31,601 nucleotides of DNA from a virus, in the IMG/VR virus record IMGVR_UViG_3300000116_000111, positions 1 through 31,601 of that record; one strand, written 5' to 3'. A program made the translations under genes and the position numbers. The notes under the pieces are model-generated. The model ran no database searches, was not told where the DNA came from, and was given only the letters and a program-made list of their open reading frames with translations. Positions 1,723 to 30,844 of this stretch are shown here, piece by piece (position 1 is the stretch's first letter; each line of letters opens with the position of its first letter).

Positions 1723-2411
1723 CGTTTCCAGTAATCCTTGATCCATTGTTGTGGGTGGTATGTAGCCATTGGTGTTGTAATAGTTTCACTTATTGCCTGT
1801 TCAATACTTGGTCGGCCATGAAAGCAAACAATTGACACTTCCTCTTTGGGAGGTCCTGGATACACATCATACTTATATGATTTTAGTTTGTTGGGATACT
1901 TGTGTTGTAATAACGTACGATGGTATGGATTCATAATTGAGCTTAGATACTCACCATCACCACGATATGAATCAACTACTCGATCATAGCTGAGAACAAA
2001 TGTGTCCCAAATATGTGAGTTGGGTTCAAAATCCCAAGACATAACACCAGTTTGCAACACGTTCTTGAGATGCGGTTGATGAGCATTAACTGCACCAACA
2101 TCTTCAATACCCATAAACCACGAACGATCTTCTAGCAACCAGTCAATGTTACTTGTGATGATTGTATCAAGATCGAAGTAAACCATTCGATCGCTAGACT
2201 TGTTTCCAGGGTCAAACATTTGTAGTTTATTCCACCAACCTTCGTATCCAGGTCGTAGAACCTTTACGTCTACACCTGGAATAGCTCGATCAGAATAACA
2301 TACAAAGTTGTGGGGAACAGTTGTGTTTCGTTCTACCGCTGCCTTTAAGTTATAAACATAATCTAATGAAAACTTTGTGCCCCAATAGACACAAGCTACT
2401 GTCACAGTCAT
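1719..2411 (-). CDS. GT-A fold glycosyltransferase (GT8-like)
   Basis: A 230-residue protein that starts MTVTVACVYWGTKFSLDYV, a typical first beta strand of GT-A sugar transferases. The motif MVYFDLDTIIT (around residues 76-86) carries the DxD signature that binds the divalent metal and nucleotide-sugar phosphates. The C-terminal part has a conserved-looking Cys-Phe-His-Gly (CFHGRP), as in GT8-like enzymes where the late His also binds metal. It likely transfers one sugar from a UDP- or similar donor. A GAGGAAG site precedes the ATG, which starts one base after the upstream stop. Confidence 0.85.
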   Translation of the reverse strand: MTVTVACVYWGTKFSLDYVYNLKAAVERNTTVPHNFVCYSDRAIPGVDVKVLRPGYEGWWNKLQMFDPGNKSSDRMVYFDLDTIITSNIDWLLEDRSWFMGIEDVGAVNAHQPHLKNVLQTGVMSWDFEPNSHIWDTFVLSYDRVVDSYRGDGEYLSSIMNPYHRTLLQHKYPNKLKSYKYDVYPGPPKEEVSIVCFHGRPSIEQAISETITTPMATYHPQQWIKDYWKR

Positions 2412-2412
2412 A

Positions 2413-3060
2413 CTATACTTCCTCTATCACATAGTCCTTGTTATACATATGTTTAGCAAGACATCCCTGTGTTTTTTGAATTGTAGAAAAACTCTCTCTT
2501 ACTTCTACAGGCCATGGATAATATTCTTCCAAAAATGGGAACGTCCCAATGTTCAAAAATATATCAGTTGGCTGAGCTTCTAGTCTAGCACGTTCGACCA
2601 ACACCTTTGCAGCATTAGGTTTTAACCTATATGCATGTGCACCTGGAAAATACCTTTTTGATACTAATCTATTTGTTCCCAGGTTAGGTGGTGTATTGAA
2701 CTTACCATAAGATGGCTTACCAAGTGATATGCAACCATTATAGCTGAATTCAGGGATTGGGGCAACAATTACAGCATCATGTTCAAAAATTGTTACTTCT
2801 TCATTCCGATCGGCACAATACTGCCAGATAGAAAAGTGAGAGCAGAAAGCTGCACGTGCATTATCTTCTCGAGAGTAAGGATTGTTGTTAAATAGTCTAT
2901 CATCAACTTTTTCTTCTTTAATATACTGATGACAGTCCTTAGGAGTAAATGCATCATAATATTCAATCTGCATGCCGTATTTTTCACCCGATGCTACACA
3001 TCGTTCTGCAGCTTGTTCTGATTTTTCATTGCCTTGAATAGTAATAACAAAATTTCTCAT
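2413..3060 (-). CDS. GT25-like glycosyltransferase
   Basis: A 215-residue protein beginning MRNFVITIQGNEKSEQAAER. This is the usual start of GT25 (LPS beta-galactosyltransferase-like) enzymes, in which a first strand is followed by N-x-x-R-S-like residues. The central VTIFEHDAVIV contains the E-H-D metal/donor motif, equivalent to E-D-D in the family. The motif YDAFTPKD before it matches the family's conserved YDA-x-x region. An in-frame upstream extension of 28 residues runs into the previous gene and has no ribosome binding site, so I reject it. It shares a general plan with the two neighbouring EHD proteins at 3063-3881 and 7910-8572. Confidence 0.85.
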   Translation of the reverse strand: MRNFVITIQGNEKSEQAAERCVASGEKYGMQIEYYDAFTPKDCHQYIKEEKVDDRLFNNNPYSREDNARAAFCSHFSIWQYCADRNEEVTIFEHDAVIVAPIPEFSYNGCISLGKPSYGKFNTPPNLGTNRLVSKRYFPGAHAYRLKPNAAKVLVERARLEAQPTDIFLNIGTFPFLEEYYPWPVEVRESFSTIQKTQGCLAKHMYNKDYVIEEV

Positions 3061-3062
3061 AA

Positions 3063-3881
3063 TTAACCTTGTGTTGTTGATGGTGTTCCTTGAACTTGAG
3101 TTAGGTATGGAAACACTTGATAGCAACGAGCAAGTTGGCGGCACAACATAGCATCATTAGGCCAAATTCCATATTGCTTTATGTTTTCAAATGCAGCTTG
3201 GATTGCATTCAAACCAATGTAATATGCTGATCCTCCTGCTATGCCTTGAGGTACCTTTCTATCATCATCTACCCAAGGAGCTTGTACAATACGACGTTGC
3301 GTACCATCCTCATCGGTATAAGTTCTTATATTTGTAGACGCTTCATCAAGCACATGTTGATGGTAAATAGATGATCTTCTAGTAGCATTCATTGGACTGT
3401 TTAATCCTATAACCCCATCTTGACGTCTGAGGCTAGTTGCGGTTTGATTTGTTAGTTTTTTAACAAATAAAGCATCGTGCTCAAGAACAACACCACCCTC
3501 TCCAACATCGCTGCGGAAAAGATCTAAAATTGCCCATGCTCTCATGTGAGAAACTGCACAAGCTATAACTTTATTTTGATCTTGTGCGGCATATCCAGTA
3601 AGCCGTAATCCAGAAGCAAAATCAACTGTTGTTTCACCTTTTTTGGGATATGACCAGAATGAACGATCCATACCAAATTGATCAAGATCATAATCAAGTG
3701 TTTCAGGAGTAGTAGCCTGCATTATAATATATGCTAGTGCACTTTCTGTATTCTGAATAGACTTTATCAGCTTTCTTACTGCAACAAGCGATACTTGGTT
3801 ATTAATATCAGTAATAATAACGGCTCCAAGACGACCATGATCTGCAAAAGGGTCTTCAGGTGTAAAAGTATCTTCTGTCAT
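3063..3881 (-). CDS. GT25-like glycosyltransferase-related protein
   Basis: A 272-residue protein with the segment GGVVLEHDALFVKKL in its centre. This is the same E-H-D-A motif as in the neighbouring GT25-like gene, preceded by an A-x-S-H-x-x-A-W motif that often sits before it in this family. The first 50 residues are more divergent, with an acidic start. The stop lies two bases from the start of the next GT25-like gene, so the pair is probably translated together. A sugar-transfer role is likely; donor and acceptor are unknown. Confidence 0.75.
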   Translation of the reverse strand: MTEDTFTPEDPFADHGRLGAVIITDINNQVSLVAVRKLIKSIQNTESALAYIIMQATTPETLDYDLDQFGMDRSFWSYPKKGETTVDFASGLRLTGYAAQDQNKVIACAVSHMRAWAILDLFRSDVGEGGVVLEHDALFVKKLTNQTATSLRRQDGVIGLNSPMNATRRSSIYHQHVLDEASTNIRTYTDEDGTQRRIVQAPWVDDDRKVPQGIAGGSAYYIGLNAIQAAFENIKQYGIWPNDAMLCRQLARCYQVFPYLTQVQGTPSTTQG

Positions 3882-3882
3882 T

Positions 3883-4461
3883 TTAAGCTCTTCTCTTTAA
3901 GACTGTGTATCCTACATTGTCAGTATTTCGCTCAACAACCTCCCACGGATAGTCCAAACAAAACACCTGGAGGCAATCATATAGTCGACTATCATTTTTT
4001 CCGTGTAGCATGCTTGTATCATGAGCAATAATATATTTATTTATAATAGGAGAATGAAGTCTCAACTCTTTTATCATATGATCAGGATGATGAAGAGAAT
4101 CTATCATTAACATATCAGATCGTTTAGTTGATTTGATACTTGTTGAATCTTCTTCTAATACATAGTTGCGAATATTATTCTCTTTGCAGTATTGTTCAAA
4201 TATTGGTTGTAAGAACTTTTTATACCTAGACATATCTTTGTCTACAAGCTGTATTTGCTCTGGTTTACACAAAGCTGCGGCGGCTGCAGTTCCTCCTTGG
4301 TGAGTTCCCAACTCAATATACGAATCACATTCCTTCATATATTTACGGATTGCATCATGCATAGCACAATAGTGTTCACCATGTGCTTCTTCTTGCTGAC
4401 GAACAATCTCACTGTAGAATTCTTCCATTGTGGTCACGTGACCAAGTTCTGAGTTAATCAT
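3883..4461 (-). CDS. SAM-dependent methyltransferase (CmcI/Methyltransf_24-like)
   Basis: A 192-residue class I methyltransferase-like protein. Motif I is DSYIELGTHQGGTAAAAAL (around residues 46-64), the glycine-rich SAM loop. QLVDKD supplies the acidic residue at the end of strand 2, and MLMIDSLHHPDHM resembles the motif IV region of CmcI/TylF-like sugar and antibiotic methyltransferases. The start at 4461 has a loosely spaced AAGG upstream; a second ATG eleven codons in is possible. It sits among glycosyltransferases, so a sugar or glycan substrate is a reasonable inference. Confidence 0.8.
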   Translation of the reverse strand: MINSELGHVTTMEEFYSEIVRQQEEAHGEHYCAMHDAIRKYMKECDSYIELGTHQGGTAAAAALCKPEQIQLVDKDMSRYKKFLQPIFEQYCKENNIRNYVLEEDSTSIKSTKRSDMLMIDSLHHPDHMIKELRLHSPIINKYIIAHDTSMLHGKNDSRLYDCLQVFCLDYPWEVVERNTDNVGYTVLKRRA

Positions 4462-4505
4462 CTAATTCAACCTTGCTAAATATGTAATCCTGCTGAACTA
4501 CAGTT

Positions 4506-5090
4506 CTATTTTTTTGTTCCTACATCAAGATCTTTAACTTTTTTATTATGCACAAATCCGTGTTGTTCAAAAAAAGAAAAATACTGATCTCTTGTAGGTG
4601 CACCTTGATTATATACAATGCCTTCTACTGGTGTTTCACAATGAATAGCTATACACTTGCTAAGATTAGTCTCAGATAAAATATCTAGTTCAGATCCTTG
4701 TACATCTATTTTTAGGAACTCTGGCAACAGCAATTTATTAGTGTTTATAAAATTGTTAAGAGTATCTGTTGTAACAGTTTTTGTTTTACTCTCACTATGC
4801 TTACCATTGTATGTTTCCATGTACAAACTGTCACCAGTAGTTCCTAAGCTGTAAAACTTTCTTTCCTCTATTGTGTTTGATAAAGCAGTATTGAACCATT
4901 CTATTGTTTCCACATTTTTGCTCCACTTAGGTCTTAGATGAATTGTATTAGCTTCAAATGCATATATAATTGCTTGTGGTTTAATATTATAGACCTTTCT
5001 AGAAAAATCACCTTTGTATGCACCAATATCATACACCACATTAACATTATGATCTACTATAATTTTTTCAAGTTCATTAATAAGAATCAA
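4506..5090 (-). CDS. FkbM-family SAM methyltransferase
   Basis: A 194-residue protein with the hallmarks of FkbM (Methyltransf_21) O-methyltransferases: motif I VVYDIGAYKGDFSR, the IYAFEAN acidic strand, and the family signature LKIDVQGSELDIL near residue 125. The start is TTG at 5088-5090, which overlaps the upstream stop as TTGA and has GAGGT six bases before it. No in-frame ATG lies near, so TTG is well supported. A gap of 44 bases separates its end from the next methyltransferase gene. FkbM enzymes often methylate sugar hydroxyls. Confidence 0.9.
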   Translation of the reverse strand: MILINELEKIIVDHNVNVVYDIGAYKGDFSRKVYNIKPQAIIYAFEANTIHLRPKWSKNVETIEWFNTALSNTIEERKFYSLGTTGDSLYMETYNGKHSESKTKTVTTDTLNNFINTNKLLLPEFLKIDVQGSELDILSETNLSKCIAIHCETPVEGIVYNQGAPTRDQYFSFFEQHGFVHNKKVKDLDVGTKK

Positions 5091-5749
5091 AATATACCTC
5101 GAGCTTTCAACATATAGTAGTTTTCGATCTTTGGTTTCTTTTCAGGTAATCCAAGTTTCACTCTTGGCCTAACATGGATCATAGCAGCTTTCTCTGGCTC
5201 TGGTCTATAGCTACAGTAACACCATCTTTGCGGTAAAGGTTCATCCTCAAGTGGTAGTTCCGCAAGCATTGCTAGTCTATGAGTATAGAACTCATCGTGA
5301 AATCTACCAGGAGCCCATTTTAGATCTTTATCACTAATATGCTTACGTAACCGTTCACGAATCTCTAGTGACATTTTATATATTGCACCACCCCAATATG
5401 CATAACGTCTATCAGATAACTGCGGTAGTTTATTCAAATATTTTTCAAATATTTCTGTTTGATATTCTGTATGCATTCCAACACCTGGAAGTTCAAATAC
5501 ATTTTCCGTCAGATTACGAACACAAATCATGTCTGTATCAACCATTAAAGTATTATCATAATCGTCAAATTCTTCATTAAACATTGCTAGCTTTTGAAGT
5601 TGATCGCTATATCTTTTATCAAATGGATGTCCTGTCAACAGCTTGTAATCTGCGCCAACATACTCAGCATAATCTTTCATGCTTTGTACTGAGATCTTTT
5701 CTAGTTCTCTGAGAGGACCATTCCAGTGTTGTAAAATAATATTCTTCAT
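5087..5749 (-). CDS. Glycosyltransferase, paralogue 1 of a three-gene family
   Basis: A 220-residue protein beginning MKNIILQHWNGPLRELEKIS. LMVDTDMICVRNL holds a DxD motif (DTD) in the expected place for a GT-A enzyme. I chose the ATG that overlaps the upstream stop as ATGA, with GGAAG just before it. Its N-terminal plan (MKxxIxQxW, then a segment with Y-A-E-x-x-G-A-x-Y) is shared with the genes at 5746-6555 and 7165-7953, so the three are paralogues. The C-terminal half has a WGGAIYKMS motif where GT8-like enzymes contact the acceptor. Confidence 0.85.
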   Translation of the reverse strand: MKNIILQHWNGPLRELEKISVQSMKDYAEYVGADYKLLTGHPFDKRYSDQLQKLAMFNEEFDDYDNTLMVDTDMICVRNLTENVFELPGVGMHTEYQTEIFEKYLNKLPQLSDRRYAYWGGAIYKMSLEIRERLRKHISDKDLKWAPGRFHDEFYTHRLAMLAELPLEDEPLPQRWCYCSYRPEPEKAAMIHVRPRVKLGLPEKKPKIENYYMLKARGIF

Positions 5750-6555
5750 GGAAGCTTCCATTCTGACTGTGGTTTGTTAACAATTGTGTGATGCCATGCA
5801 GCATCGTGATGATCTGCACCTCTCAGCTGAACGTGAGTTAGTTTTGCGTTCCAGTGATCACGGCCATCGAATACTGGTCTTGGGACTTCAGCAGCATTGC
5901 CAGCATAATGTATATATGCATTCCAACCTGGATCCATTTCGGTGACATCCATATTAGCAATTGTTAACATTGCATGTAAGTAGTTTTGGTCTAGTTGGTA
6001 AAATTTACTTAGTGAGCTTGTTCTAATTAAGTTAATATATTCTTGGAACGGTCTAAAGTTTTGTCGGGCTTTCTCTCTACCTTTTTTCGTATAAACAACA
6101 ACTCCAGAATTGTATACTTTCATATCTCCGTTATCGTTTATTGGCATGCTCTTTTTATATTTATTCTGCAGCCAACTGTTCCATAGCTTGTCTGTTTTAT
6201 TATTGTTTATACCTTCACCACGGCCTCTGGTAACCTCTTTATGAAGCTCACGGCAGATACCAATGTCTGCTAATTCTTGATCAAAGATATCTTCCTCTAG
6301 ATCATCTACAGCAAATATATCTGTATCAGCAAATAGAATGTTATCATATTGTTCAAAGACATCGGTATTGTAGATTGGTTCAAAAGCACTGTAATATTGA
6401 GGATAAGAACATCTATTGGTTGCCCACGTTGGATTTGTTTGAAAGATATACTCAGCACCAATACGCTCTGCGTAATTCTTGATATTCTCTACACCAGCAT
6501 TTACACCTATTGGTCTTGTATTACCTAACCAATACTGATAAATTAAATTTTTCAT
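5746..6555 (-). CDS. Glycosyltransferase, paralogue 2 of a three-gene family
   Basis: A 269-residue protein that starts MKNLIYQYWLGNTRPIG and carries NYAERIGAEYIF at residues about 28-39, like its two paralogues. The metal-binding DxD is ILFADTDIFAVDDL. VYNSGVVVYTKKG in the centre matches the acceptor-side loop of GT8-like enzymes. The ATG at 6553-6555 shares a base with the upstream stop (TGATG); a GTG one codon earlier is possible but less likely. The gene lies between two FkbM/transferase genes in a single overlapping operon. Confidence 0.87.
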   Translation of the reverse strand: MKNLIYQYWLGNTRPIGVNAGVENIKNYAERIGAEYIFQTNPTWATNRCSYPQYYSAFEPIYNTDVFEQYDNILFADTDIFAVDDLEEDIFDQELADIGICRELHKEVTRGRGEGINNNKTDKLWNSWLQNKYKKSMPINDNGDMKVYNSGVVVYTKKGREKARQNFRPFQEYINLIRTSSLSKFYQLDQNYLHAMLTIANMDVTEMDPGWNAYIHYAGNAAEVPRPVFDGRDHWNAKLTHVQLRGADHHDAAWHHTIVNKPQSEWKLP

Positions 6556-7184
6556 CACACTCTTTCATAAAACTTATCATGACCAATCGCAGCAAATTCA
6601 CTATAACCCAACGATTTCATAAGATCAAAGAATCTTTGATTGTAGCCAGGATCATTAGCTAATTCAATATGCATCACTGGATCATTATTTTCTAATAGCT
6701 TTTTCATACCATTGAGTACAGGAATGTTATACCCTTCAACATCAATCTTAATGAAGTCTACGTCTTTAAAACTATAGTGATCGATTGGCTTACAGGGATA
6801 AGGAGTTGATTCGACTACTAGATTCTTACGGTAGAGATAATCAACAACTCCTTCATGAACAACTGTGCATCCACCTGAGTTGTTGGTATTAATAAACATA
6901 TCTACAGTACCTTCATGATCTGATACTGCATGTTCATATAAAGTTATATTATCAATGTTAGAGGTATTCTGTCTAAAGTACTTTGCGTGAATAGGTTCAA
7001 ACGCATATACTTGCTCGAAGAACTTTGCAAATCTAATAGAAGTTATACCAATGTGGCCACCCAGATCAAGACATGTTCTAAAGTTCTTTATCTTGTTCTT
7101 TGCGGTTTCAAATTGTTCTTTATCCCAGTTTAATCCATCACGAAACTTCCAGGACAGATCCCCCTCAGGGTACACTAATTGCAT
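6555..7184 (-). CDS. FkbM-family SAM methyltransferase
   Basis: A 209-residue FkbM-type methyltransferase. Motif I is CLDLGGHIGITSIRFAK, followed by VYAFEPIHA, and the family signature VDFIKIDVEGYNIPVLNGM sits near residue 140. GAGGAA at a suitable distance before the ATG supports the start, which overlaps the 3' end of the upstream glycosyltransferase by 20 bases. Interleaving with three paralogous glycosyltransferases suggests that it methylates one of the sugars they add. Confidence 0.9.
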   Translation of the reverse strand: MQLVYPEGDLSWKFRDGLNWDKEQFETAKNKIKNFRTCLDLGGHIGITSIRFAKFFEQVYAFEPIHAKYFRQNTSNIDNITLYEHAVSDHEGTVDMFINTNNSGGCTVVHEGVVDYLYRKNLVVESTPYPCKPIDHYSFKDVDFIKIDVEGYNIPVLNGMKKLLENNDPVMHIELANDPGYNQRFFDLMKSLGYSEFAAIGHDKFYERV

Positions 7185-7953
7185 TGAATAATTCCTCTAC
7201 GTTTTCACCCTTCTGAGGCAGTAAGTCTTTCAAGAAGAAATGGATAAAATTACATTCTTCTATACGTGTGTTAGCAGTATACAGTCCATTCCACTTCCAG
7301 TCAAGATGCTTTATGTTCATCTTCTCTTCGCGGATCCATGTGTTAAGAAGTGTTTGATCTGTTGACCATTTCCATGCACCTAATCCATCAATGAATGGTT
7401 TGAATTGTGGACGGGAAAGAAACTGCTTTGGAGTTTCACCATTAAGATATTTCTCAATAGATTTATTGAGAATCATAACACCCATGTTCATGAATTCAGC
7501 TCCTAGCTGATTCCACTTCCAATCTACACTTTTAATGTTGGAATATTGCATACGTGAGTAGTTAGCAATCTTTGCTTTGTACTTCTCAGTAATAGGCATT
7601 TGTCTTTCTACAACAGCACCAAAATGGTAATCAGAACTAACATCAGAGAATATAGAATCAGTGACGCTAAGACGTATATAAACATCAGCATCAATAACAG
7701 CCACTTGATCATATGTTTTTAGATAGGTAAATGCGTTTTCTTTTTCATAGATTGGAAGAAAACCACCATACTTTGCATAGGATTCTGTACTTCTGTTTGT
7801 CTGAAAGATATCAGGTTTAATCATTAGTATTGGATTGCGTTGGACATGATAATCGGCACCAATCCGTTCAGCGTATTGTTTTACCGACTCAGTACACGCA
7901 TCATATAGCTTAGAGCGTTTGCCCGTGTAAACCTGGTATATCAAAGTTTTCAT
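7165..7953 (-). CDS. Glycosyltransferase, paralogue 3 of a three-gene family
   Basis: A 262-residue protein beginning MKTLIYQVYTGKRSKLYDAC and carrying QYAERIGADYHV, matching paralogues 1 and 2. The DxD motif is VAVIDADVYIRL (DAD). MNMGVMILNKS corresponds to the acceptor loop of GT8-like enzymes, and a late NFIHFF motif may provide a metal-binding His. AGGA lies eight bases before the ATG. The start overlaps the upstream gene by 44 bases, unusually long for this operon, which suggests the paralogue was inserted by recombination near gene ends. Confidence 0.87.
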   Translation of the reverse strand: MKTLIYQVYTGKRSKLYDACTESVKQYAERIGADYHVQRNPILMIKPDIFQTNRSTESYAKYGGFLPIYEKENAFTYLKTYDQVAVIDADVYIRLSVTDSIFSDVSSDYHFGAVVERQMPITEKYKAKIANYSRMQYSNIKSVDWKWNQLGAEFMNMGVMILNKSIEKYLNGETPKQFLSRPQFKPFIDGLGAWKWSTDQTLLNTWIREEKMNIKHLDWKWNGLYTANTRIEECNFIHFFLKDLLPQKGENVEELFNAISVP

Positions 7954-8572
7954 AATCTAGTCCTACAAACTTTCTGTTAGGGTTTCTATGATCAATTGTA
8001 TTTAGACCATCATAATTTACTTGTTCAATATAACAATAATCATTCATTTTGACTTGTTTATCTAAACTTAGGGTTGAAGCAAGATGGCCGTCACTGTTCT
8101 GGCGAATTGGTTTTGATACTGCAGTTGCAATCAATCTACTCGCAGCATTTGGTGTTAAATAATAACCTGAGCCAGGTGCTATATGAATTCCTTTTTTTCC
8201 AAAATCTCGGTTCAAATATGATAAAAATTTGTAACCCTCTTTTGACATATCTGGAAGAGGTTTGACTAGCAGCGAATCATGCTCAATAATAACAAGTGGA
8301 CCGTTGTTATAACACTCACACCACAACTCGAAGTGGCTATACCAAACAGCCTTTTCTGTAGACGTGAAATCTCTTTCAGACTTTTGGCCAAACTCCAATT
8401 TAGTTTTATACACTAAATCCTTTGGAGTTACTGCTTCAAATACATCTACTTTGTATCCATTCTTTTTCCAAGATGGTAATACATTTCTTTGATACATGAC
8501 AGACACAGGATGATCTGTCATTGCAATCATTTTTATTTTATAGGATTGGGTCACCATGTTTATAATATTCAA
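7910..8572 (-). CDS. GT25-like glycosyltransferase
   Basis: A protein of up to 220 residues with LVIIEHDSLLVKPLPDM, the E-H-D motif seen in the two other GT25-like genes. It is preceded by AVWYSHFELW and by VFEAVTPKDL, which aligns with DAFTPKD of the gene at 2413. The family's first strand is KIKMIAMTDHPVSV. The start is uncertain: TTG at 8572 has AAGGA five bases upstream, whereas in-frame ATGs at 8557 and 8530 have no clear site. The ATG at 8530 would remove part of the first strand. I keep the longest form. Confidence 0.78.
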   Translation of the reverse strand: MNIINMVTQSYKIKMIAMTDHPVSVMYQRNVLPSWKKNGYKVDVFEAVTPKDLVYKTKLEFGQKSERDFTSTEKAVWYSHFELWCECYNNGPLVIIEHDSLLVKPLPDMSKEGYKFLSYLNRDFGKKGIHIAPGSGYYLTPNAASRLIATAVSKPIRQNSDGHLASTLSLDKQVKMNDYCYIEQVNYDGLNTIDHRNPNRKFVGLDYENFDIPGLHGQTL

Positions 8573-9068
8573 TAATATCCTTAGGTATCATATTATGTAA
8601 ATCGTTACTACCATTTCTTGAATTTACTTTAAGTTGATTTCTTCTAATAAAATTATCAGCACTAATATCATTCATGAGCAAAATACCTTTATGAAAATAA
8701 AGACTGTTAAATTGTAAGGATTTCAAAGGTATATCGCGTCTGAATTCACTATCATCAAAACAAACAATAAAATGTTCTTTGAGTATTCTTGCTTTACGCA
8801 GCACGTTCATGAACGTGTACCATTGCTGTACACCATCAACTCCAACTACTTCTTTTTTTACTGGTAAATTAAAACTAAACTCTTCATCGGAATTGTTTAT
8901 TTTATCCACGCTAACGTAGTATTGTATAGAAGGCTCGTATCCAAAAGTTCTAAGTTGATTAACTATAGTTTCTTTTGATTTCATTTGTATTAGATCGTTT
9001 GGATTGCAAATAACAAACACTTTTGTGTTTTTAGAAAGGTATAACGGATCTTCTATAAAATCTATCAT
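8538..9068 (-). CDS. Hypothetical protein in glycan island
   Basis: A 176-residue protein without a family I can name firmly. It begins MIDFIEDPLYLSKNTKVFVI and holds an HFIVCFDDSEF strand. The latter resembles the acidic strand of GT25-like enzymes (F-E-D-D), so it may be a divergent or reduced glycosyltransferase. It shares a 4-base ATGA overlap with the radical-SAM gene upstream and overlaps the GT25-like gene downstream, so it is part of the same operon. No membrane segment or signal peptide is seen. Confidence 0.6.
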   Translation of the reverse strand: MIDFIEDPLYLSKNTKVFVICNPNDLIQMKSKETIVNQLRTFGYEPSIQYYVSVDKINNSDEEFSFNLPVKKEVVGVDGVQQWYTFMNVLRKARILKEHFIVCFDDSEFRRDIPLKSLQFNSLYFHKGILLMNDISADNFIRRNQLKVNSRNGSNDLHNMIPKDIIEYYKHGDPIL

Positions 9069-10036
9069 CTGTAGTCTTCCAGGCTAAATTTGGTTCCATA
9101 CATCTTGTAGTTTTCTCGATCATGATTAGTATATACTAGAACTTCTGGATCATCAATTAAGAAGTCACAGCCTTCACAATAGCTAGGCCAGTTACCAGTC
9201 TCATGGTCTTTTCTCAGTTGATTGTATTTATCTCCATACCAGATCTCTTCTAGTGAATTTAACGAACCGTGTCCTAGTACAGCTTCAGCATCTCTACCTA
9301 ACACTTGACAGCAAGGGTGTATAGCGCCAGTGGCACCGCCAATACCACCAGCTCTAATAACAAGATCAGGGGAAAATGGTCTACCACAAGTTTTTCTACT
9401 ACCTTCTCTATCATATTCTGGTTCATAAACTCCACTCCAGTTGTGCATCTTCCATATTTCTGTTTTTACATTGGCAGATGTGACAATCTTTTTATATTGT
9501 TCTACTTCATACTCAATGTCATTATTATTTAGAATCAAATGATACGTTGCAACAACACATTTAGATTTTGACTTGACTACGTACCGCTTCATCTCGTGTA
9601 GATTAGAAATTGTCCGATAGAAGTTTTTAGAATTCATCCATTCCTTGTATGTGTCGTAATCATAACCAACAATAGAAAATCTAAAGAAGCCTAATCCAGC
9701 ATCAACACATTCTTCCATATAGTTACCATTCATACGATAGCCATTTGAAAAGATAACGGACTGTGCACCTGCATCAGTAACTACTTTGATATACTCTGGG
9801 AGATTCTTTACGATAGTTGCTTCGCCTGATCCATCTAGGTTAACAACATTGAGGCCTTTGTCTACTAGCTGATTCACATAGCCTTTGAACTCATCCAAAG
9901 GCATCATACCGGTCCAGTCTTTACCTCTGGCACCTGTTCTACCTTCAGCAAATGTCTGTGGACACATTTGACAAGTGTAGTTGCATCCACCATTTACTTC
10001 TATCACTGCGCGATCAATTTCCATCTTACCATCCAT
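9065..10036 (-). CDS. Radical SAM enzyme with SPASM-like domain
   Basis: A 323-residue radical-SAM protein. The cluster-binding motif CNYTCQMC (C18, C22, C25) binds the [4Fe-4S] cluster that cleaves SAM. A C-terminal set of cysteines (CGRPF, HPCCQ, YCEGC) fits a SPASM-type domain carrying an auxiliary cluster. VNLDGSGEATI in the middle resembles the strand-4 GxG region. Such enzymes modify peptides or small molecules by radical chemistry. The first ATG (10036) overlaps the upstream stop; an in-frame ATG at 10024 follows directly after it and is equally possible. The substrate is unknown; context suggests a sugar or a modified metabolite. Confidence 0.88.
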   Translation of the reverse strand: MDGKMEIDRAVIEVNGGCNYTCQMCPQTFAEGRTGARGKDWTGMMPLDEFKGYVNQLVDKGLNVVNLDGSGEATIVKNLPEYIKVVTDAGAQSVIFSNGYRMNGNYMEECVDAGLGFFRFSIVGYDYDTYKEWMNSKNFYRTISNLHEMKRYVVKSKSKCVVATYHLILNNNDIEYEVEQYKKIVTSANVKTEIWKMHNWSGVYEPEYDREGSRKTCGRPFSPDLVIRAGGIGGATGAIHPCCQVLGRDAEAVLGHGSLNSLEEIWYGDKYNQLRKDHETGNWPSYCEGCDFLIDDPEVLVYTNHDRENYKMYGTKFSLEDYR

Positions 10037-10847
10037 TCACAAATCTAAAAAACAGTTGTTTAAAATTATACGCTTTTTCTGTTGCTTGTTCTACCATATA
10101 ATCAAACTTCTTTAAGTGTATATCTATATAGAATCCATCACTAGTCACAACGGCTGCAGGTGTATGCCACGTTGAAATGCTGGAAGTGCTAATGACGATA
10201 TGAGGCTTAAAAAAATTCTTTGCAACATAATGCCACATACCCTCATATGATAAACAACATTCACATGTACGTATGTGATACATAGCTTCTGTTACAGGAG
10301 TTCTATAATCTATTTCAACAACATTCCAACCAAAGTCTAATAATCTTGCAATCAATCTCTCCCACTCCCAATCAAGAAGAATATGTTTATCGTTACCTAT
10401 TTGTTGTGTAAGATTTGTTGTTGGTCTCCATAGTACTATTTTTCTACTAATTGGCGTAGTATCAATAGTGGGGTCCATTGACCAGTATCGATATAATTCT
10501 GAGTTGGGTCTTCTCGTTATTCCCTGATAGAATTTTTTATATAACGAATAATCTTGACTGTTAGTCACTACCTTTACGTTTACGATATCAGACCACATAT
10601 ATCTTTTACGAACATACTCATATCGCTGATACACACTTTCAGGATCTTCAAAGTGATGATAATAATCTTTATCATGAAAGAAATGCAACTCAAACGTTGT
10701 TGGTTTCTGGTTAGCAAAAGCTCTCATATGAGCAATGTTTAAACCATACATCGTATCACCAATACCTACTGTTGTTTTCCAACGTATGGTATCTACACCG
10801 TGGTTATCTCTCCAATCCCCTATCCAATAATTCCATAGGTCCTTCAT
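10026..10847 (-). CDS. Hypothetical protein, possible GT-B glycosyltransferase
   Basis: A 273-residue protein. The first 60 residues hold VGIGDTMYGLNIAHMRA, similar to the gly-rich first loop of heptosyltransferase-like GT-B enzymes (GIGDxL). The second half has a KIVLWRPTTNLTQQ strand, GWNVVEIDY, and LSYEGMWHYVAKNF. The last resembles the donor-binding loop where GT9-type enzymes have a D-x-G-x-x-H-x-A motif. I infer a GT-B-like fold, but key residues differ, so an alternative role is possible. The start overlaps the preceding small gene by 44 bases and has only a poor ribosome binding site. Confidence 0.65.
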   Translation of the reverse strand: MKDLWNYWIGDWRDNHGVDTIRWKTTVGIGDTMYGLNIAHMRAFANQKPTTFELHFFHDKDYYHHFEDPESVYQRYEYVRKRYMWSDIVNVKVVTNSQDYSLYKKFYQGITRRPNSELYRYWSMDPTIDTTPISRKIVLWRPTTNLTQQIGNDKHILLDWEWERLIARLLDFGWNVVEIDYRTPVTEAMYHIRTCECCLSYEGMWHYVAKNFFKPHIVISTSSISTWHTPAAVVTSDGFYIDIHLKKFDYMVEQATEKAYNFKQLFFRFVNGW

Positions 10848-21717: not shown

Positions 21718-22081
21718 TTTCGATCCTTCCAATAAGTTTGTTAACGGCGTTGTTAACTCTGTCTTCCAGTCCTTGTGCATTTGTCAATGCCTCCATAGTC
21801 AAGTCAATTTTTGCAAACACACCTCTTAGTTTATCCAAGTGCTCTTGCGATTGTTGTAATCTCTTTGTGAGATCTTTATTTAGTTGTTCATTCTTCTTTG
21901 CATCTGCAGCCATCTTCTCAACTGTATTCTGAAGAGTCTCTGCAGCTGTCTTTAACTTTACATTATTCTCACGCAAAGTTCCAATTGTTTCTTGTGACCA
22001 CATATAGTAACTATACCCAGCATACCCTACTCCTGAAAGTAAGGAAACAAGAAACAAAAATAAATATATCTTAGCCATCAT
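21647..22081 (-). CDS. Inner-membrane spanin (i-spanin, Rz-like)
   Basis: A 144-residue protein with an N-terminal membrane anchor (residues 4-27, IYLFLFLVSLLSGVGYAGYS) and a long periplasmic coiled coil (about 33-120, Lys/Gln/Glu/Leu-rich), the Rz architecture. The tail is acidic and Ser/Thr/Pro-rich. Two ATGs in tandem open the frame (22081, 22078), overlapping the preceding gene. Its C-terminal coding region contains the whole signal sequence of the outer spanin in another frame. Together the two proteins would complete lysis of a Gram-negative host. Confidence 0.87.
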   Translation of the reverse strand: MMAKIYLFLFLVSLLSGVGYAGYSYYMWSQETIGTLRENNVKLKTAAETLQNTVEKMAADAKKNEQLNKDLTKRLQQSQEHLDKLRGVFAKIDLTMEALTNAQGLEDRVNNAVNKLIGRIESETTPPSDEPDTTDSVRGENSGG

Positions 22082-22433
22082 AATACTTTCTGAACCTCTT
22101 TAGTAATCGAGGTTGCTTGTCTTTTCTACGGCGCCGATCAGTTACATTAATTGGTAGACCCATACGTCTACGGAAGATATGAGTTGGCAAACGAGAGGGG
22201 CCCATATTCTTTGTGTCCTGAGGAATACCTGCATCAGCAGCAGTCATAGCTTCTTCTTTCTGCATATTGATGAAAAAGTTTGCTTGCTTCTTATCCAATG
22301 TAGTAGCTCCTGGTCTGTTCTTCAATGCGCGTGCCTTTGCAATAGTCATCTTACCTTTGACCTTTGCTTTAAGAGTTCCTGGTGCACCTCTCTTAGAATG
22401 ACTCTTCTTAATTAGTTCTGATGTCTTACTCAT
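22071..22433 (-). CDS. Very basic conserved phage protein (120 aa)
   Basis: A Lys/Arg-rich protein (MSKTSELIKKSHSKRGAPGT at its start and a DRRRRKDKQPRLLKRFRKYY tail). The middle (FINMQKEEAMTAADAGIPQD) is of a type I recall in T4-like marine phages. High charge suggests nucleic-acid or capsid-interior binding. The start overlaps the upstream stop as ATGA. No enzyme motif is present. Function unknown. Confidence 0.75.
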   Translation of the reverse strand: MSKTSELIKKSHSKRGAPGTLKAKVKGKMTIAKARALKNRPGATTLDKKQANFFINMQKEEAMTAADAGIPQDTKNMGPSRLPTHIFRRRMGLPINVTDRRRRKDKQPRLLKRFRKYYDG

Positions 22434-24788: not shown

Positions 24789-25067
24789 TTACATCCAAAG
24801 TTGAGCTGCGATTGATCCTGAAATAGCAACAATTGCTACCCAGAATAATTTATTTATAATTTGAACCGTTCTGGCATTATCATCAACTTTACGTTCTATC
24901 TCATCAAGTTTAGAAGATAGACGGTTCATTCTTTCATATGCTCGATCATGATCTTGTTTAAGACCAGCTAGCTTCTCTTCAGCACGGGCCATAGCAACCA
25001 TTGCTTCAGCCAGCTGATCCAGCTTAGATTCAATTCGATCAAGACGTGCGCTGTTTGTCTCTGCCAT
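24789..25067 (-). CDS. Coiled-coil protein with C-terminal membrane anchor (XhlA-like)
   Basis: A 92-residue protein: residues 5-65 are a heptad-patterned coiled coil (RLDRIESKLDQLAEAM; RLSSKLDEIERKVDDN), followed by one membrane segment (IINKLFWVAIVAISGSIAAQ) and a short tail. This plan resembles the XhlA hemolysin/holin-accessory family, membrane proteins that assist lysis. The ATG overlaps the stop of the upstream gene (TAATG); an in-frame start four codons earlier is less likely. A lysis-accessory role is possible, but spanins lie 3 kb away and no holin is visible here. Confidence 0.7.
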   Translation of the reverse strand: MAETNSARLDRIESKLDQLAEAMVAMARAEEKLAGLKQDHDRAYERMNRLSSKLDEIERKVDDNARTVQIINKLFWVAIVAISGSIAAQLWM

Positions 25068-25348
25068 TAACAGTTCCACCTTCTACGAGCTGCTTTGCCT
25101 CTTTCGCCAGTCCAACTTCTTGAACGAGAGCAGAAGGCCTTTCTTCTTTTAGCCGCCTTACTACCAGGCTTCAAGGTACTGGGCTTGGCGGTTACAGCTG
25201 TTTGTAATTTACTTCCAGGGTTACGTCTACGATAAGCTGCAACCCCTTTCTTTGTCATGCCAGCACCTTTGTCTACAGGACGTTTGTGTCCTGAGCTTAC
25301 TGACATGCCCGACATGTCTTCTTGGATAAATGTCTTGAAAGAAATCAT
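25067..25348 (-). CDS. Small basic protein with capsid-targeting-like N-terminus
   Basis: A 93-residue protein. The N-terminus MISFKTFIQEDMSG matches the pattern of T4 internal-protein capsid-targeting sequences, with I-Q-E as a possible prohead-protease site. The rest, KKGVAAYRRRNPGSKLQTAV, then KPGSKAAKRRKAFCSRSRSW and a RRRWNC ending, belongs to a recurring phage domain with this exact C-terminus. It is strongly basic, suited to binding DNA inside the head. The ATG overlaps the preceding stop as ATGA. Confidence 0.78.
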   Translation of the reverse strand: MISFKTFIQEDMSGMSVSSGHKRPVDKGAGMTKKGVAAYRRRNPGSKLQTAVTAKPSTLKPGSKAAKRRKAFCSRSRSWTGERGKAARRRWNC

Positions 25349-27198
25349 TTCTTCTTAACCATTTTTTTTAGTCTGTCTAACTTAGTGGTGACGTTGATAG
25401 CACCCTTCAGTCTATTGTTAGCTTTTCTTGAACCACTAAACGCATCATCACCTTTGGTTTTGTCCCAATATGATTGCATTGTGTCTTTGGAAAGCTCATT
25501 AACTGATTCAATATTCATACGCTTTGCTTTAGTACCCTTATTTCTTGCTTCTTGAGACATATTGTTAGCATGCATAGTTAGATGGTATGCCATATGCATA
25601 TCCTTTGCTTTTTTTTGAATAGAACCATCTTTATCTGCACCTGAACTAGAATGAGAAGCATTAAAGTGTGCTTCTGCTGCCTTCTTATGATGGACTGAGG
25701 CTTGGTGATGCAATCTTTGTAAAGTTGGACTAGAAGATTTTTCACCTGCCTTTGTATGAGCATCCGCAACCTCAATGTGATGTGCAGCAGTTTTATCATG
25801 AGCATCTGCTTGACTACTCGTTACAGTATGACTCTTATTACCGCCACCTCCGATGCTATTTGTGTCACGAGAATCTTTCCCAGAATACTTTTTAGTATGA
25901 CTCGGTGGCTTTACTGTCTGGTGTGTAAGATCTTCATCAAGCTCATTAACTGATTCAATATTCATAGCTTTAGATTTTTTAGTTACCATGCCACCCTCTC
26001 GGGCAAGACGTTTAAATGTTCTAGCTTGTCCACGTGATGCACCGTGTCTAGCTTCGTGCTTGTGGCGGTCTGCGAAAACAGAATGTTCGTATCCTTGGTC
26101 ACCGTGAGCTTCAGCAGCTTCATGATCGCCGTTTTCCTTAGCTGCATCCATTGCTTTCCAATGTTTATGGGCCATACTCCTATGATGTTTTTCAGCCTTA
26201 CCGTGAGCATCTTTATAATTATCAGTTAGAGCTTCTTCAAGCTCTACTTCTTCACGGATTTTAACTTTAAACATTTTTTCAACAGTTTGTTTGCCCATGT
26301 GCTTTGCCATGACTCTAATGATCTTTTCATAAACTTCCGTATCTTGACCATCAACAAACTTGATAAGAGCCATCCCTGCTTTGCCAGATGATAACATCTT
26401 GGCTGCTTTCATAAAGTCAGCTTTATCTATGCCACCACTTTTCTTTGCATATGAATTAAGTTCATCCGCAGCTTTTTTCATAGCAGGTGTTGCAGCTTCG
26501 TTCACGTCTTCTGTAGCAGCTACTTTAGCAGCAGATCCTTTGCCTTGCATTTTACGCAACTTATCATCAGCCATCTTCTGACCGCCAATACGCTTGTCCT
26601 GTGTACGAGCTGATTGACGAGGCTTACCAGCATCTGCAGCAGATTTTCTCATATAGTTGCTGAGTGTTTTGGATGATACTTCTGCAACTCTTTTAGCTGT
26701 GGCTGTTGCAATAGCCATCTTTTTGTCCATTGGCATGTCTGGGTCGTCCCTCTTGATGGCTTTTGCTATTTTATCTCTTTTACGAATCTCAGCAGGAGTA
26801 AGAGTCTTCTCTTTTTTCATAGCAGGTGTTGCAGCTTCGTTAACTTTCTTTTTAAATGTTTCCAAACCCTTTTTACCTCCTGATGCCATGCGGTCTGCTT
26901 TATTAGACTGAGTAGTAGCAATACGCTTCATACCACCTTCATCCATCTCCGCTTTCTTAACTTTACGACGAGCCAATTCAGCTTTAGCGTGAGTAGCCTG
27001 AGGATGATTTGGATTACGAGCAATAGCACTTAATCGTCTGTTATCCATTGACTGTGGATCTGCGTCTAAACTTTCTTTTATCTTCTCAAGGTGATCTCCA
27101 TACCTATGTGGAAGATCTTCAACTTTGTATTTTTGACCTTTATGAAATTCGTGATTTGGATCTTTTGCAGCTTTTCTCACTTCATGAAAATTTGCCAT
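25345..27198 (-). CDS. Mosaic modular protein with internal repeats (617 aa)
   Basis: A long, Lys/Ala/His-rich protein built of short modules. In order: an N-terminal RKAAKDPNHEFHKGQKY unit; MDNRRLSAIARNPNHPQATHA; VNEAATPAMKK (119-129) repeated at 232-242; a VSSKTLSNYMRKSAADAG unit (174-191) whose relative ELSKDTMQSYWDKTKGDD occurs at 568-585; a His-rich helical stretch (333-395) and another (461-545); and MNIESVNEL at 412-420 repeated at 561-569. No enzyme motif is evident. AAGGA precedes the ATG. Its neighbours carry capsid-targeting-like tags, so a head-interior or scaffold-like polyprotein is likely, though unproven. Confidence 0.75.
   Translation of the reverse strand: MANFHEVRKAAKDPNHEFHKGQKYKVEDLPHRYGDHLEKIKESLDADPQSMDNRRLSAIARNPNHPQATHAKAELARRKVKKAEMDEGGMKRIATTQSNKADRMASGGKKGLETFKKKVNEAATPAMKKEKTLTPAEIRKRDKIAKAIKRDDPDMPMDKKMAIATATAKRVAEVSSKTLSNYMRKSAADAGKPRQSARTQDKRIGGQKMADDKLRKMQGKGSAAKVAATEDVNEAATPAMKKAADELNSYAKKSGGIDKADFMKAAKMLSSGKAGMALIKFVDGQDTEVYEKIIRVMAKHMGKQTVEKMFKVKIREEVELEEALTDNYKDAHGKAEKHHRSMAHKHWKAMDAAKENGDHEAAEAHGDQGYEHSVFADRHKHEARHGASRGQARTFKRLAREGGMVTKKSKAMNIESVNELDEDLTHQTVKPPSHTKKYSGKDSRDTNSIGGGGNKSHTVTSSQADAHDKTAAHHIEVADAHTKAGEKSSSPTLQRLHHQASVHHKKAAEAHFNASHSSSGADKDGSIQKKAKDMHMAYHLTMHANNMSQEARNKGTKAKRMNIESVNELSKDTMQSYWDKTKGDDAFSGSRKANNRLKGAINVTTKLDRLKKMVKKK
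25493..25519 (-). repeat. 27-base direct repeat, copy A
   Basis: These 27 bases are identical to 25940-25966. On the minus strand they encode MNIESVNEL in the 617-residue protein. Exact identity at DNA level, including third codon positions, points to a recent duplication or recombination between modules. Confidence 0.9.
25940..25966 (-). repeat. 27-base direct repeat, copy B
   Basis: Exact copy of 25493-25519, in the same frame of the same gene, about 447 bases away. Recombination between the two would delete one His-rich module while keeping the frame (447 is a multiple of 3). Confidence 0.9.
26472..26502 (-). repeat. 31-base direct repeat, copy A
   Basis: Identical to 26811-26841. It encodes the NEAATPAMKK element in the 617-residue protein. 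Flanking bases diverge immediately, which marks the module boundary. Confidence 0.9.
26811..26841 (-). repeat. 31-base direct repeat, copy B
   Basis: Exact copy of 26472-26502, 339 bases away, also a multiple of three, so exchange between copies would keep the reading frame. Confidence 0.9.
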
Positions 27199-27287: not shown

Positions 27288-29084
27288 CTAAGCTAAATCC
27301 TTATCGTGGTTGAGACCACCAGTTTTCTTCTTTCTAATAAACGCGTTAACACGCGCGTGGCCCCATTGTGACGGGGTTGTACCAGGTCTATGACCTGTCT
27401 TCCATGCGGCAACCCCTCTTTGATAAACTTTCTTTAGAGTGCCTACTGAAATTCCTGATGCTTTTGACTTATCAGCAAATGATGCTTCTTGCATTGGCTT
27501 TTGTTTTAAATAATCCTTACGAGAGATCTTTGGACCACCATATTCATTCATGTTGGCTACTTTTGTATCTCTCATACGAGCTTTATCCATCATACGATCG
27601 TGTTTCTTTTTATCCATCTCTTTCTCACGATCAATCTTTGCTTTAGCTTGATCGGTATGAGAATTCTGTTCACCCATCATCTTACGGACAAATGTTGTAT
27701 GCTTGGATGGTTTAGTCTTGGCTGTCTTATCGCCTGGTGCTGGCTTATATGCTGCAGGATCGTTATCAGCCATTTTAGTTTGTTTCTTAAACTGACGGTC
27801 GCGAGCGATCTTTGTTGCCTTTGATAGACCTTTGTGGTAACGAGCAGGTTGAGTACCTTTACGATCAGCAATATCTTTATCTTGTGGAGTTGTTGCCTCA
27901 CCTGGAGTCATATCTTTTGCTTTTTTAGTTGACTCTGGTGTTCCCCACTCAGGTTTAGTACCCATAGTACCTTCAGGTAAACGAGACTTAGCATGTTCTT
28001 TACCATGAACTGTATCATGCCATTCCCAATCATGACCACCGTATGGATTCTTCTTTTTGACCTCGATACGATACTCACCTGTGTGACGATCATTATGATC
28101 ATAATTCTTACGAACTCTCCAAGTCTGACCTTTGTGCTGAGTATGAATTTCTCCATCAGAGCCACCACGCTTCCACTTTTGAGCTTCGTTTAGTGATTCT
28201 CTAACTACACCATCAACATCGTCTGTCTTAATACCAGCATCATCCCACTTTGGTTGTGTGTTAGGATCTGTCTTTTCAATGTCATTTAGCCAAACTCTCC
28301 AAGTCTCACCTTTGGATTCAACAATAACATAGTTTGCCCCAAGATGTTGGATATTACCAACAATATCGTGCTTGAGCATTACTACTTCATCACCGACCTT
28401 GTAGATACCATCCTTGATGTATGCTTCACGCAAATCTGATACAGGCTCTAGCTGAACATGATTCTTAAACTCTGTAGCCTCTTTAAGACCCATTCCCTTA
28501 CGTACAGCATTGAATAAACGCTTAGCATCAGGGTTAGACATTGCTTTTGGAAGACCTTGAGCAAATGATGTAAAGTCATTCTGCTTAGCATTATCTCTTT
28601 GCTTGGATGCTGACATACCTTCAACACCTTCAGCGTCTGGGTCTCTTTCACCAGCAGAAATTATATTGATCTTATTGAAGTTATAGAAACCATGACGTGC
28701 TTGCTTGCCATTGTATTTGTTTAGAAGTACGTCGAATTCTCTGATGCGATCAGATCCAACAACCATTACTAGGTTTCTGAATCCTTCATCATATAGAGCT
28801 ACAGCAACATCAATTGCTGTCTTTACTTTGTTGTTAATCATTACAGAACGAGCATGTTTAGGGAACATCTTCCTAACATGTTTCACTTTGTCTTTATACT
28901 GTAGTGGATTTTTATTCTTATCTTGTGACTGAGATACGTAAACACGATAAGGATTCTTACCAGCTTTTTGAGCTAGTTTATCAAATAACTTACCATGACC
29001 AATAGTAGGAGGGTTCATTCTACCAAAGGTAAAATAAACTGTCTTTTCCTCTTCAACAAGAAACTGACTGAATCTGTTAATCAT
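27288..29084 (-). CDS. Cytidylyltransferase-fold (NadM-like) modular protein with DUF5824-like tail
   Basis: A 598-residue fusion. The N-terminus MINRFSQFLVEEE is capsid-targeting-like, with L-V-E at 9-11. Residues 15-175 resemble a nucleotidylyltransferase: FTFGRMNPPTIGHGKLF has the (T/H)xGH motif (27-30) and GMSASKQRD the second signature. Later parts are a KOW-like module (221-270, KVGDEVVMLKHDIVGNI), a TWRVRKNYD module (302-368), low-complexity Lys/Asp linkers, and a C-terminal SGISVGTLKKVYQRGVAAW/HRPGTTPSQWGHARVNAF domain (about 543-598), as in DUF5824. L-x-E-(A/G) sites at 200-203, 218-221, 298-301 and 369-372 punctuate the chain. The enzyme may act on NAD or nucleotides; the substrate is inferred. 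Confidence 0.82.
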   Translation of the reverse strand: MINRFSQFLVEEEKTVYFTFGRMNPPTIGHGKLFDKLAQKAGKNPYRVYVSQSQDKNKNPLQYKDKVKHVRKMFPKHARSVMINNKVKTAIDVAVALYDEGFRNLVMVVGSDRIREFDVLLNKYNGKQARHGFYNFNKINIISAGERDPDAEGVEGMSASKQRDNAKQNDFTSFAQGLPKAMSNPDAKRLFNAVRKGMGLKEATEFKNHVQLEPVSDLREAYIKDGIYKVGDEVVMLKHDIVGNIQHLGANYVIVESKGETWRVWLNDIEKTDPNTQPKWDDAGIKTDDVDGVVRESLNEAQKWKRGGSDGEIHTQHKGQTWRVRKNYDHNDRHTGEYRIEVKKKNPYGGHDWEWHDTVHGKEHAKSRLPEGTMGTKPEWGTPESTKKAKDMTPGEATTPQDKDIADRKGTQPARYHKGLSKATKIARDRQFKKQTKMADNDPAAYKPAPGDKTAKTKPSKHTTFVRKMMGEQNSHTDQAKAKIDREKEMDKKKHDRMMDKARMRDTKVANMNEYGGPKISRKDYLKQKPMQEASFADKSKASGISVGTLKKVYQRGVAAWKTGHRPGTTPSQWGHARVNAFIRKKKTGGLNHDKDLA

Positions 29085-29617: not shown

Positions 29618-30844
29618 TTAAGTCCTCGTTGGCTTGTCCCATCCCTTTAATATATCTGGTGAAAAGTTGTTGTATGAGAACTCCATACGATCAACAATTT
29701 TCACCGCGTCACCACCAATTTTATCAATTGCTACATAACCTTCTTCGCCAGTTACTTTGTAACCATTGCGTGTCTTAACAAAAGTACTAACATTACTTAG
29801 TTTATTGAGAGTATTTATAAGTTTTAATTTTGCCAAAACAATCACTTTTTGTAGATCAAACATGTATTTCAGAGAAGTTTTATTCTCCTCTGAGAAGAAA
29901 GAGAGTATCTTATCTAGCTTCTGCTGCTGAGATGCCTTCCCTCTCTCACTCTTACGCTTTGCGATCTCTTTTGCATATTTAAGTCTGATCCACCTAATGA
30001 GCATTGATACATGTCGTCCTGAATCTCCAATGACTTCGCCTTTTCTAACATACTTGTTGTTGAATTGCTCAATGAGGCGCGGTAGCTCATCATTCGTTTC
30101 AAGCTGTCTGAGTGTTGACCCAGCAATTTTGTTGAAGAGGAAGCCAGCTTTCGATAGATATTCATTAACAATTTCTGTATCCTTTTTACTCATAGTGACT
30201 CTTGTAAGGTCTCTCAACATAGCATCCTGAGACCAGACGTTTTTAGATTTCTTGAATTTACTTACATCGACTCCATACGAAGCTCGCATAGACTCGAATG
30301 TGTTACCTTTATAGGTTGTATGCCAGACAATTCCAATTTTTGCTGACTTAATTGCCTTAGCTGCATCCGACTTTGTTGGCACAGCATAAACGATAGTATT
30401 TGGGTGAAAAGTAAGATAGGACTCTCCTTTGATCTTCTGTGTCTTTAAATCACCAGGACCGTATAGAAAGTCTCCTTGCACTACTCCAGTAATCCCAAGC
30501 TCGGGAAGATACTTGAGAGCAAGTTTAAGTTTAGCAGCAAGATCACCAGAAGTGTCAGTGTCCACGTCTGCAGCAGACTTATAAACTTTAGGATTCTTGT
30601 TGAAGATTCCTTTCTTAGCAACAAAGAAATTGCCATCGCTGGGATCAATGCCAGCAAAGATGGCAGGTGCTCCGTCCCACTTAACGCTGACAGATCCATC
30701 GTGAACTCCTTTCAACATATCACGCAGTTCACGCAGAGCAAGAATTGCTTGACGTGTACCAGTAACACCACCGTAGATTACCTTGTCTTCGATGTGTGTC
30801 ATGTGAGTGTTTTTTTGTTCGGTTATAAATTCTGCGAAGCTCAT
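29618..30844 (-). CDS. Ligase-fold-like nucleotidyltransferase with capsid-targeting-like N-terminus (DUF6267-like)
   Basis: A 408-residue protein. MSFAEFITEQ at the N-terminus matches the T4 capsid-targeting pattern with I-T-E. SVKWDGAPAIFAG holds K55-W-D-G, the KxDG motif I of DNA/RNA ligases, in which Lys is adenylylated. GVVQGDFLYG (121-129) and KIGIVWHTTYKG (169-180) fit the places of later motifs (D/E-G-E and E-G-x-V-like). FFVAKKG lies between them. The C-terminal half is a Lys-rich helical domain. I recall a conserved family of unknown function (DUF6267-like). Whether it seals nucleic acid is unproven. The ATG follows the upstream stop directly, with GGAG before it. Confidence 0.8.
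   Translation of the reverse strand: MSFAEFITEQKNTHMTHIEDKVIYGGVTGTRQAILALRELRDMLKGVHDGSVSVKWDGAPAIFAGIDPSDGNFFVAKKGIFNKNPKVYKSAADVDTDTSGDLAAKLKLALKYLPELGITGVVQGDFLYGPGDLKTQKIKGESYLTFHPNTIVYAVPTKSDAAKAIKSAKIGIVWHTTYKGNTFESMRASYGVDVSKFKKSKNVWSQDAMLRDLTRVTMSKKDTEIVNEYLSKAGFLFNKIAGSTLRQLETNDELPRLIEQFNNKYVRKGEVIGDSGRHVSMLIRWIRLKYAKEIAKRKSERGKASQQQKLDKILSFFSEENKTSLKYMFDLQKVIVLAKLKLINTLNKLSNVSTFVKTRNGYKVTGEEGYVAIDKIGGDAVKIVDRMEFSYNNFSPDILKGWDKPTRT

Follow-up and report, generated by a model that had tools for sequence, protein, structure and literature searches.

The minus-strand gene at positions 27288-29084 of the virus record IMGVR_UViG_3300000116_000111 (31,601 nucleotides, all of which were analysed and which are referred to here as the window) encodes a 598 amino acid, 68 kDa protein of the Kyanoviridae (T4-like phages), in which a cytidylyltransferase/NMNAT-fold enzyme is fused to a KOW-like unit, a unit termed TWRV and a DUF5824 domain. 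We infer, with a probability of roughly 0.64, that this protein is tagged cargo for the head of a marine T4-like phage, that the prohead protease gp21 trims its tag and cuts it at least at E300/A301 and E533/A534 (the slash marks a candidate scissile bond) and that the pieces remain alongside the DNA, probably to be injected. The closest complete relatives belong to the Kyanoviridae: phage C48C1, pelagiphage HTVC008M, the Methylophilales phages Melnitz and hundreds of cyanophages.

Domain organisation

Read as coding sequence, the plus strand of 27288-29084 contains stops throughout and was ruled out. A Pfam scan of the minus-strand product identified a cytidylyltransferase-like domain (PF01467, above cut-off) and DUF5824, whilst PHROGs placed the chain among the phage cytidyltransferases (phrog_3041, 2.8e-84). 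An NCBIfam search returned a nucleotidyltransferase domain only, below cut-off, a PDB sequence search with the chain gave no match and PADLOC found nothing convincing. AlphaFold modelling (43 sequences, pLDDT 78.6, pTM 0.42) yielded reliable domains in an arrangement that is not reliable. In order, the model comprises the enzyme (residues 12-202), a KOW-like barrel (217-271), a disordered stretch (279-309), the TWRV beta unit (313-367), a patchy helical region and DUF5824 from about residue 531. The basic linker and helical region (residues 373-530, 27495-27968, minus strand) includes low-pLDDT stretches, and residues 372-533 have a pI of 9.9 and a net charge of +17.

The enzyme unit (28479-29051, minus strand) is assigned to the NMNAT/PPAT fold by PF01467, phrog_3041 and structure alignment. 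Model residues 12-202 can be aligned with solved structures of PPAT and NMNAT, which score about equally (Z 13.9 and 12-13), and the GRMNPPTIGH motif is present within the nucleotidyltransferase fold, as in NMN/NaMN adenylyltransferases. The enzyme may act on NAD or on other nucleotides, the structural comparison favouring neither PPAT nor NMNAT. One homologue (L040 1048) has a degraded active-site motif (TMDNFNPPAISHG) and retains both the tag and the remainder of the chain; it is perhaps a packaged pseudoenzyme. In the C48C1 record (L027 8001-9410), the annotated start of the cytidyltransferase is an ATG inside the gene (8067), so that the tag and the first part of the enzyme fold are missing; homology favours a start at 8001.

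An N-terminal capsid-targeting-like sequence

The best-supported site of the chain, FSQFLVE/E (residues 5-12), was overlooked in the original prediction. Together with the preceding residues it forms the sequence MINRFSQFLVE (29052-29084, minus strand), with a predicted cut at E11/E12. In T4 internal proteins the tag has targeting positions at 4 and 7 and processing positions at 8 and 10 (reviewed in PMC9026906), and the record of one such protein begins MKTYQEFIAE/A. In T4, a D at the tag position prevents processing while leaving targeting unaffected (PMC9026906). The window protein likewise has aromatic residues at two targeting positions three apart, followed by (I/L)xE. The pattern F..[FY][LI].E is found in 49 of 53 distinct homologues, and the cyanophage orthologues examined begin MKKFSAFLNE/A (S-SM1), MKSFLQFLKE/A (S-SCSM1), MKSFSQFLTE/T (P-SSM2) or similarly. 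Within the window, targeting-like starts occur in three of 41 genes, all between 25 and 31 kb, and at none of 241 internal methionines. Taken together, these patterns suggest that residues 1-11 are a capsid-targeting sequence of the T4 internal protein type.

Orthologues have been found in virions. The S-SM1 protein, the product of a cyanophage core gene, was detected by virion mass spectrometry (PMC3037559), as was its S-SCSM1 counterpart (PMC9602691), which is annotated as a virion protein along with the products of several neighbouring genes. A cytidylyltransferase was also detected in S-CREM2 virions (PMC10665884), although the authors of both the S-CREM2 and S-SCSM1 studies allow for the enzyme having co-purified as a contaminant (PMC10665884, PMC9602691). 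The S-PM2 copy is rearranged, lacks the tag and was undetected in S-PM2 virions, an absence that is consistent, if weakly, with a role for the tag. Homologues in jumbo phages also lack it. A literature search for 'capsid targeting' together with cyanophage returned a single T4 review.

The joints ahead of TWRV and DUF5824

The original prediction was of a self-contained polyprotein cut by the prohead protease at L-x-E-(A/G) sites lying between modules. The residue positions given for LKEA (200), LREA (218), LNEA (298), LPEG (369) and MQEA (531) agree with the translation; the mass given for the chain, 66 kDa, was slightly low. The chain contains four [LI]xE[AG] motifs against a mean of 0.38 expected (P 0.0002, 5000 shuffles) and none in reversed form. 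The AlphaFold model bears out only in part the claim that the motifs lie between modules: LKEA 200 closes the enzyme fold, LNEA 298 falls within the disordered stretch, LPEG 369 comes just past the last TWRV helix and MQEA 531 opens the first DUF5824 helix, but LREA 218 is inside a KOW helix (217-225).

LNE/A (298-301; 28182-28193, minus strand) is a candidate cut ahead of the TWRV unit (303-368; 27981-28178, minus strand). TWRV is a small mobile beta unit found alone or in other proteins at 80 loci. Modelled by itself it reaches an AF2 pLDDT of 82; comparison of its fold with the PDB gave no confident match and tblastn of the phage collection found no copies. Upstream of TWRV, 19 distinct contexts out of 20 have an [LIVM]xE motif, where 5.1 would be expected, with L or I at P3 in all 19, and A, G or S occupies P1' in 18 of the 20 (A in all 18) compared with one of 20 for the reversed motif. 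Where TWRV is a separate gene, as at L163, it can carry a tag of its own, MLTFGEYITE/AK. Within the enzyme family there are several TWRV fusions involving different TWRV variants (L180, L182 and the pair formed by L114 and the window), and the joint is present in each. This comparison gives strong support to the LNEA 298 joint as a predicted internal cut site.

MQE/A (531-534; 27483-27494, minus strand) is a candidate cut ahead of DUF5824 (residues 534-598 plus stop; 27288-27485, minus strand; PF19141, 7e-19, 68.6 bits against a 25-bit cut-off), and its position matches that of the tag and cleavage site in stand-alone DUF5824 genes. The DUF5824 piece has a pI of 10.8. In most relatives an independent gene, lying immediately downstream and beginning with a tag, encodes the domain; examples of such tags are MINFKAYITE/D, MHKFKNHIVLE/AS and MNFKEHLINE/N. 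Where it is instead fused, to parents of several kinds, [LIVM]xE is found just ahead of it in 15 of 17 distinct long forms, one or two of which are separate genes with a mis-called start, compared with 2.45 expected (binomial 2e-11). Across all contexts the count is 26 of 28 (3.2 expected). Since these site-specific counts come from related sequences, with contexts limited to less than 65% identity, and motifs were picked after examples had been seen, the P values are indicative. P1' varies at the DUF5824 joint (G, K, D, A or E), which counts against cutting there. The spacing between the glutamate and the domain varies as well, making it unlikely that the joint E is a fold residue. MQEA has M rather than L or I at P3. 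That this could be accepted is plausible, as the major capsid proteins of the clade read GGFLTE/T, GFMTE/A or GFMTE/N at the equivalent of the T4 cut. The comparative evidence thus strongly supports the MQEA 531 joint, too, as a putative internal cut site, interchangeable with that of the separate gene. No mention of DUF5824 turned up in the open-licence literature searched. The domain also occurs in the small pelagiphages HTVC202P, HTVC111P and HTVC026P (phage collection hits H68-H70) and is therefore not tied to T4-like phages.

Other motifs in the chain

LPE/G (369-372; 27969-27980, minus strand) lies at an order/disorder border in the model, directly after TWRV, a unit found in few close relatives; it is a plausible candidate for a further cut. 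Another mobile unit, ADAGIPQDT...DRRRRK, is encoded within the window at 22071-22433 (minus strand), and elsewhere (L002, L183) it follows TWRV behind EE(A/V).

At the end of the enzyme, LKE/A (200-203; 28476-28487, minus strand) is likewise a plausible candidate: the pattern G[ML]G[LI]xE is matched at this position in 46 of 53 homologues, with E, A, Q, T or S at P1'. As the site sits at the end of the enzyme fold, residue 202, its conservation may be structural.

LREA 218 was rejected. It lies in the KOW-like unit (217-271; 28272-28436, minus strand), which AF2 models as the helix 217-225 and strands; homologues have L, I, T, R or V at P3 and A, Q, S, K or N at P1', and a stand-alone KOW gene in S-PM2 has AVQQNF, with no LxE, at the same position. 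A further motif unlisted in the original prediction, IVES 254, occupies a KOW strand in the model and is unsupported as a cut. Just ahead of the KOW unit, residues 203-213 (around 28446-28478, minus strand) include EFKNHVQLE, which resembles the tag of a separate DUF5824 gene (KFKNHIVLE) and is perhaps a relic of an older fusion.

The expectation that sites would be conserved in homologues while their flanks vary is thus borne out at the 298 and 531 joints and fails at 218. Nor does LxE mark linkers in general: 10,744 amino acids of homologous linkers contain 76 forward and 67 reversed motifs, and we rejected bare LxE enrichment as evidence. When module starts were taken unselected from the borders of all-against-all BLAST matches, [LIVM]xE[AGSDE] was found at 28% of them compared with 12% at random, whilst reversed E.[LIVM] was likewise raised (34% compared with 20%), so that the specific excess of the forward motif over the reversed is only modest.

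A proposed protease acting in trans

As neither Pfam nor PHROGs scans detect a peptidase family in the chain, it is not self-contained, contrary to what had been proposed, and the protease would be gp21, acting in trans. A search for the gp21 family (PF03420) was positive for 11 of 13 related records, among them C48C1, HTVC008M, Melnitz and relatives of 122-221 kb, and no record above 112 kb lacked it. The window's own record has no match to the family, which for a 31.6-kb fragment is uninformative about the whole genome. The predicted gp23 cuts of the clade fit gp21 processing. The proposal that the chain is a substrate of T4-type prohead processing therefore holds up with regard to its N-terminal capsid-targeting-like sequence, the protease of related genomes and the conserved sites at the TWRV and DUF5824 borders; it does not extend to LREA 218.

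Neighbouring genes

Two neighbours also have targeting-like starts: the upstream gene at 29618-30844 (minus strand; phrog_455) begins MSFAEFITE/Q and a small, basic downstream gene at 25067-25348 (minus strand) begins MISFKTFIQE/D. Together these look like a head-cargo cassette. The arrangement in C48C1 (L027) is similar to the window's tagged cluster.

Next to the fusion gene, the gene at 25345-27198 (minus strand) encodes 617 amino acids with no family hit and is punctuated by [LV]xE: VNE/AATPAMKK occurs twice, and ELEE/ALTDNYKDAHGK and SVNE/LSKDTMQ lie ahead of distinct units. This product may be another chain with joints. Elsewhere, the product of S-SCSM1 gene 93 (L197 5005-5214), annotated as a virion protein, has a targeting-like sequence, TFKEFLEYIE, at its C-terminus. 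Finally, the long run of minus-strand genes at 1719-10847 appears, by eye, to encode glycosyltransferases, methyltransferases and a radical-SAM protein, and is possibly a surface or glycan modification block.

Proposed processing and alternative explanations

On the reading we prefer, the first 11 residues would bring the whole chain into the prohead core, where gp21 would take off the tag after E11 and cut at least ahead of TWRV (E300/A301) and ahead of DUF5824 (E533/A534), with possible extra cuts at E202/A203 and E371/G372. The products would be an NMNAT-fold enzyme plus KOW piece of ~33 kDa (or, if the 202 site is cut, pieces of 22 kDa and, for KOW, 11 kDa), an 8.5 kDa TWRV unit and two basic products, a helical piece of 18 kDa and a DUF5824 peptide of 7 kDa. 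All would remain in the head with the DNA and probably be injected with it, the basic character of the helical region and DUF5824 being suited to DNA contact. The LxE/A joints would allow one tag to carry several small proteins; most relatives use a separate tagged DUF5824 gene instead, and a joint within a fusion and a tag on a separate gene may be two answers to one need.

The most serious alternative, which we nevertheless regard as unlikely, is that the cargo is trimmed only after E11 and the fusion otherwise remains whole inside the head, its internal LxE motifs being relics of ancestral separate genes. A DUF5824 gene fusing to its upstream neighbour would indeed bring part of its old tag with it, one relative (L010) has an intermediate split point and bare LxE is, as described above, unenriched in linkers. 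Against this, the joints persist across several unrelated parents whilst the F..Y of the tag is lost and the spacing drifts, and 18-19 of the 20 TWRV contexts retain L or I (P3) and A (P1') at the joint; this persistence and retention suggest selection on the cut site. We consider it improbable that the protein is an ordinary cytoplasmic enzyme with accessory domains, in which the motifs reflect chance and fold residues. LREA 218 and IVES 254 are fold residues, and the untagged homologues of S-PM2 (unseen in the virion) and of jumbo phages would be expected of such an enzyme, but the conservation of the tag, the presence of tagged orthologues in virions and the tagged neighbours all argue otherwise. 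Least credible of all is that the conserved glutamate merely caps the first helix or strand of TWRV and DUF5824, with no protease role: the model does place MQEA across the beginning of the first DUF5824 helix, but the distance from the glutamate to the unit varies by several residues, L, I or M is kept at P3 as well, and stand-alone TWRV genes (L002, L121, L183 and L020) begin directly at the unit without the glutamate.

More tentatively, and at somewhat less than even odds, the reading of the window protein as cleaved head cargo may extend across the Kyanoviridae. (L/I/M)xE/A joints would then be exchangeable connectors, with TWRV, DUF5824 and other small effector or DNA-binding units shifting between tagged genes and chains, and gp21 would free all of them in the head, to be injected as one dose of several proteins, an NMNAT-like enzyme among them.

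Relation to known systems

T4 targeting tags, gp21 processing and virion-associated NMNAT-like enzymes are all of known kinds. The window protein resembles the gp21-processed T4 proteins IPI-III and Alt in its tag of ~10 residues, two aromatic targeting positions and (I/L)xE cut, as well as in having orthologues in virions and gp21 in related genomes. Each T4 internal protein, however, is one unit with one cut (Alt is cut at both ends), whereas this chain has several units with sites at internal joints. The product of cyanophage core gene T4-GC190, a virion-associated cytidylyltransferase/NMNAT-like protein, has the orthologous enzyme and KOW unit, a tagged N-terminus and a similar neighbourhood but, in the members examined, lacks TWRV and DUF5824; we found no mention of its targeting tag in the literature searched. 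The polyvalent proteins of phages and conjugative elements are likewise multidomain cargo thought to be delivered with DNA, and have been compared by their authors with polyproteins (PMC5512222). These contain embedded peptidases, mostly zincin-like (PMC5512222), whereas the window chain has none according to Pfam and would rely instead on the prohead protease acting in trans at LxE joints. In phiKZ and SPN3US, ejection proteins are head-internal cargo with propeptides and redundant sites cut after E by a gp21-like protease (PMC9026906), much as we propose here, but the motif in phiKZ is S/A-x-E and the outcome is propeptide removal rather than the release of several units at LxE. We found no account in the open-licence literature of a link between tag, gp21 and enzyme, or of site-bearing joints that connect exchangeable units; the closest concept there is that of the polyvalent proteins (PMC5512222).

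Cyanophage virions have repeatedly yielded cytidylyltransferase/NMNAT-like proteins that could not be separated, as cargo, from contamination (PMC9602691, PMC10665884), and a targeting tag offers a concrete reason for such enzymes being in the head. Should the joints indeed be cut, a single gene of a marine T4-like phage would supply cargo made up of several proteins, and the tag and the joint motifs would reveal from sequence which proteins these abundant viruses inject.
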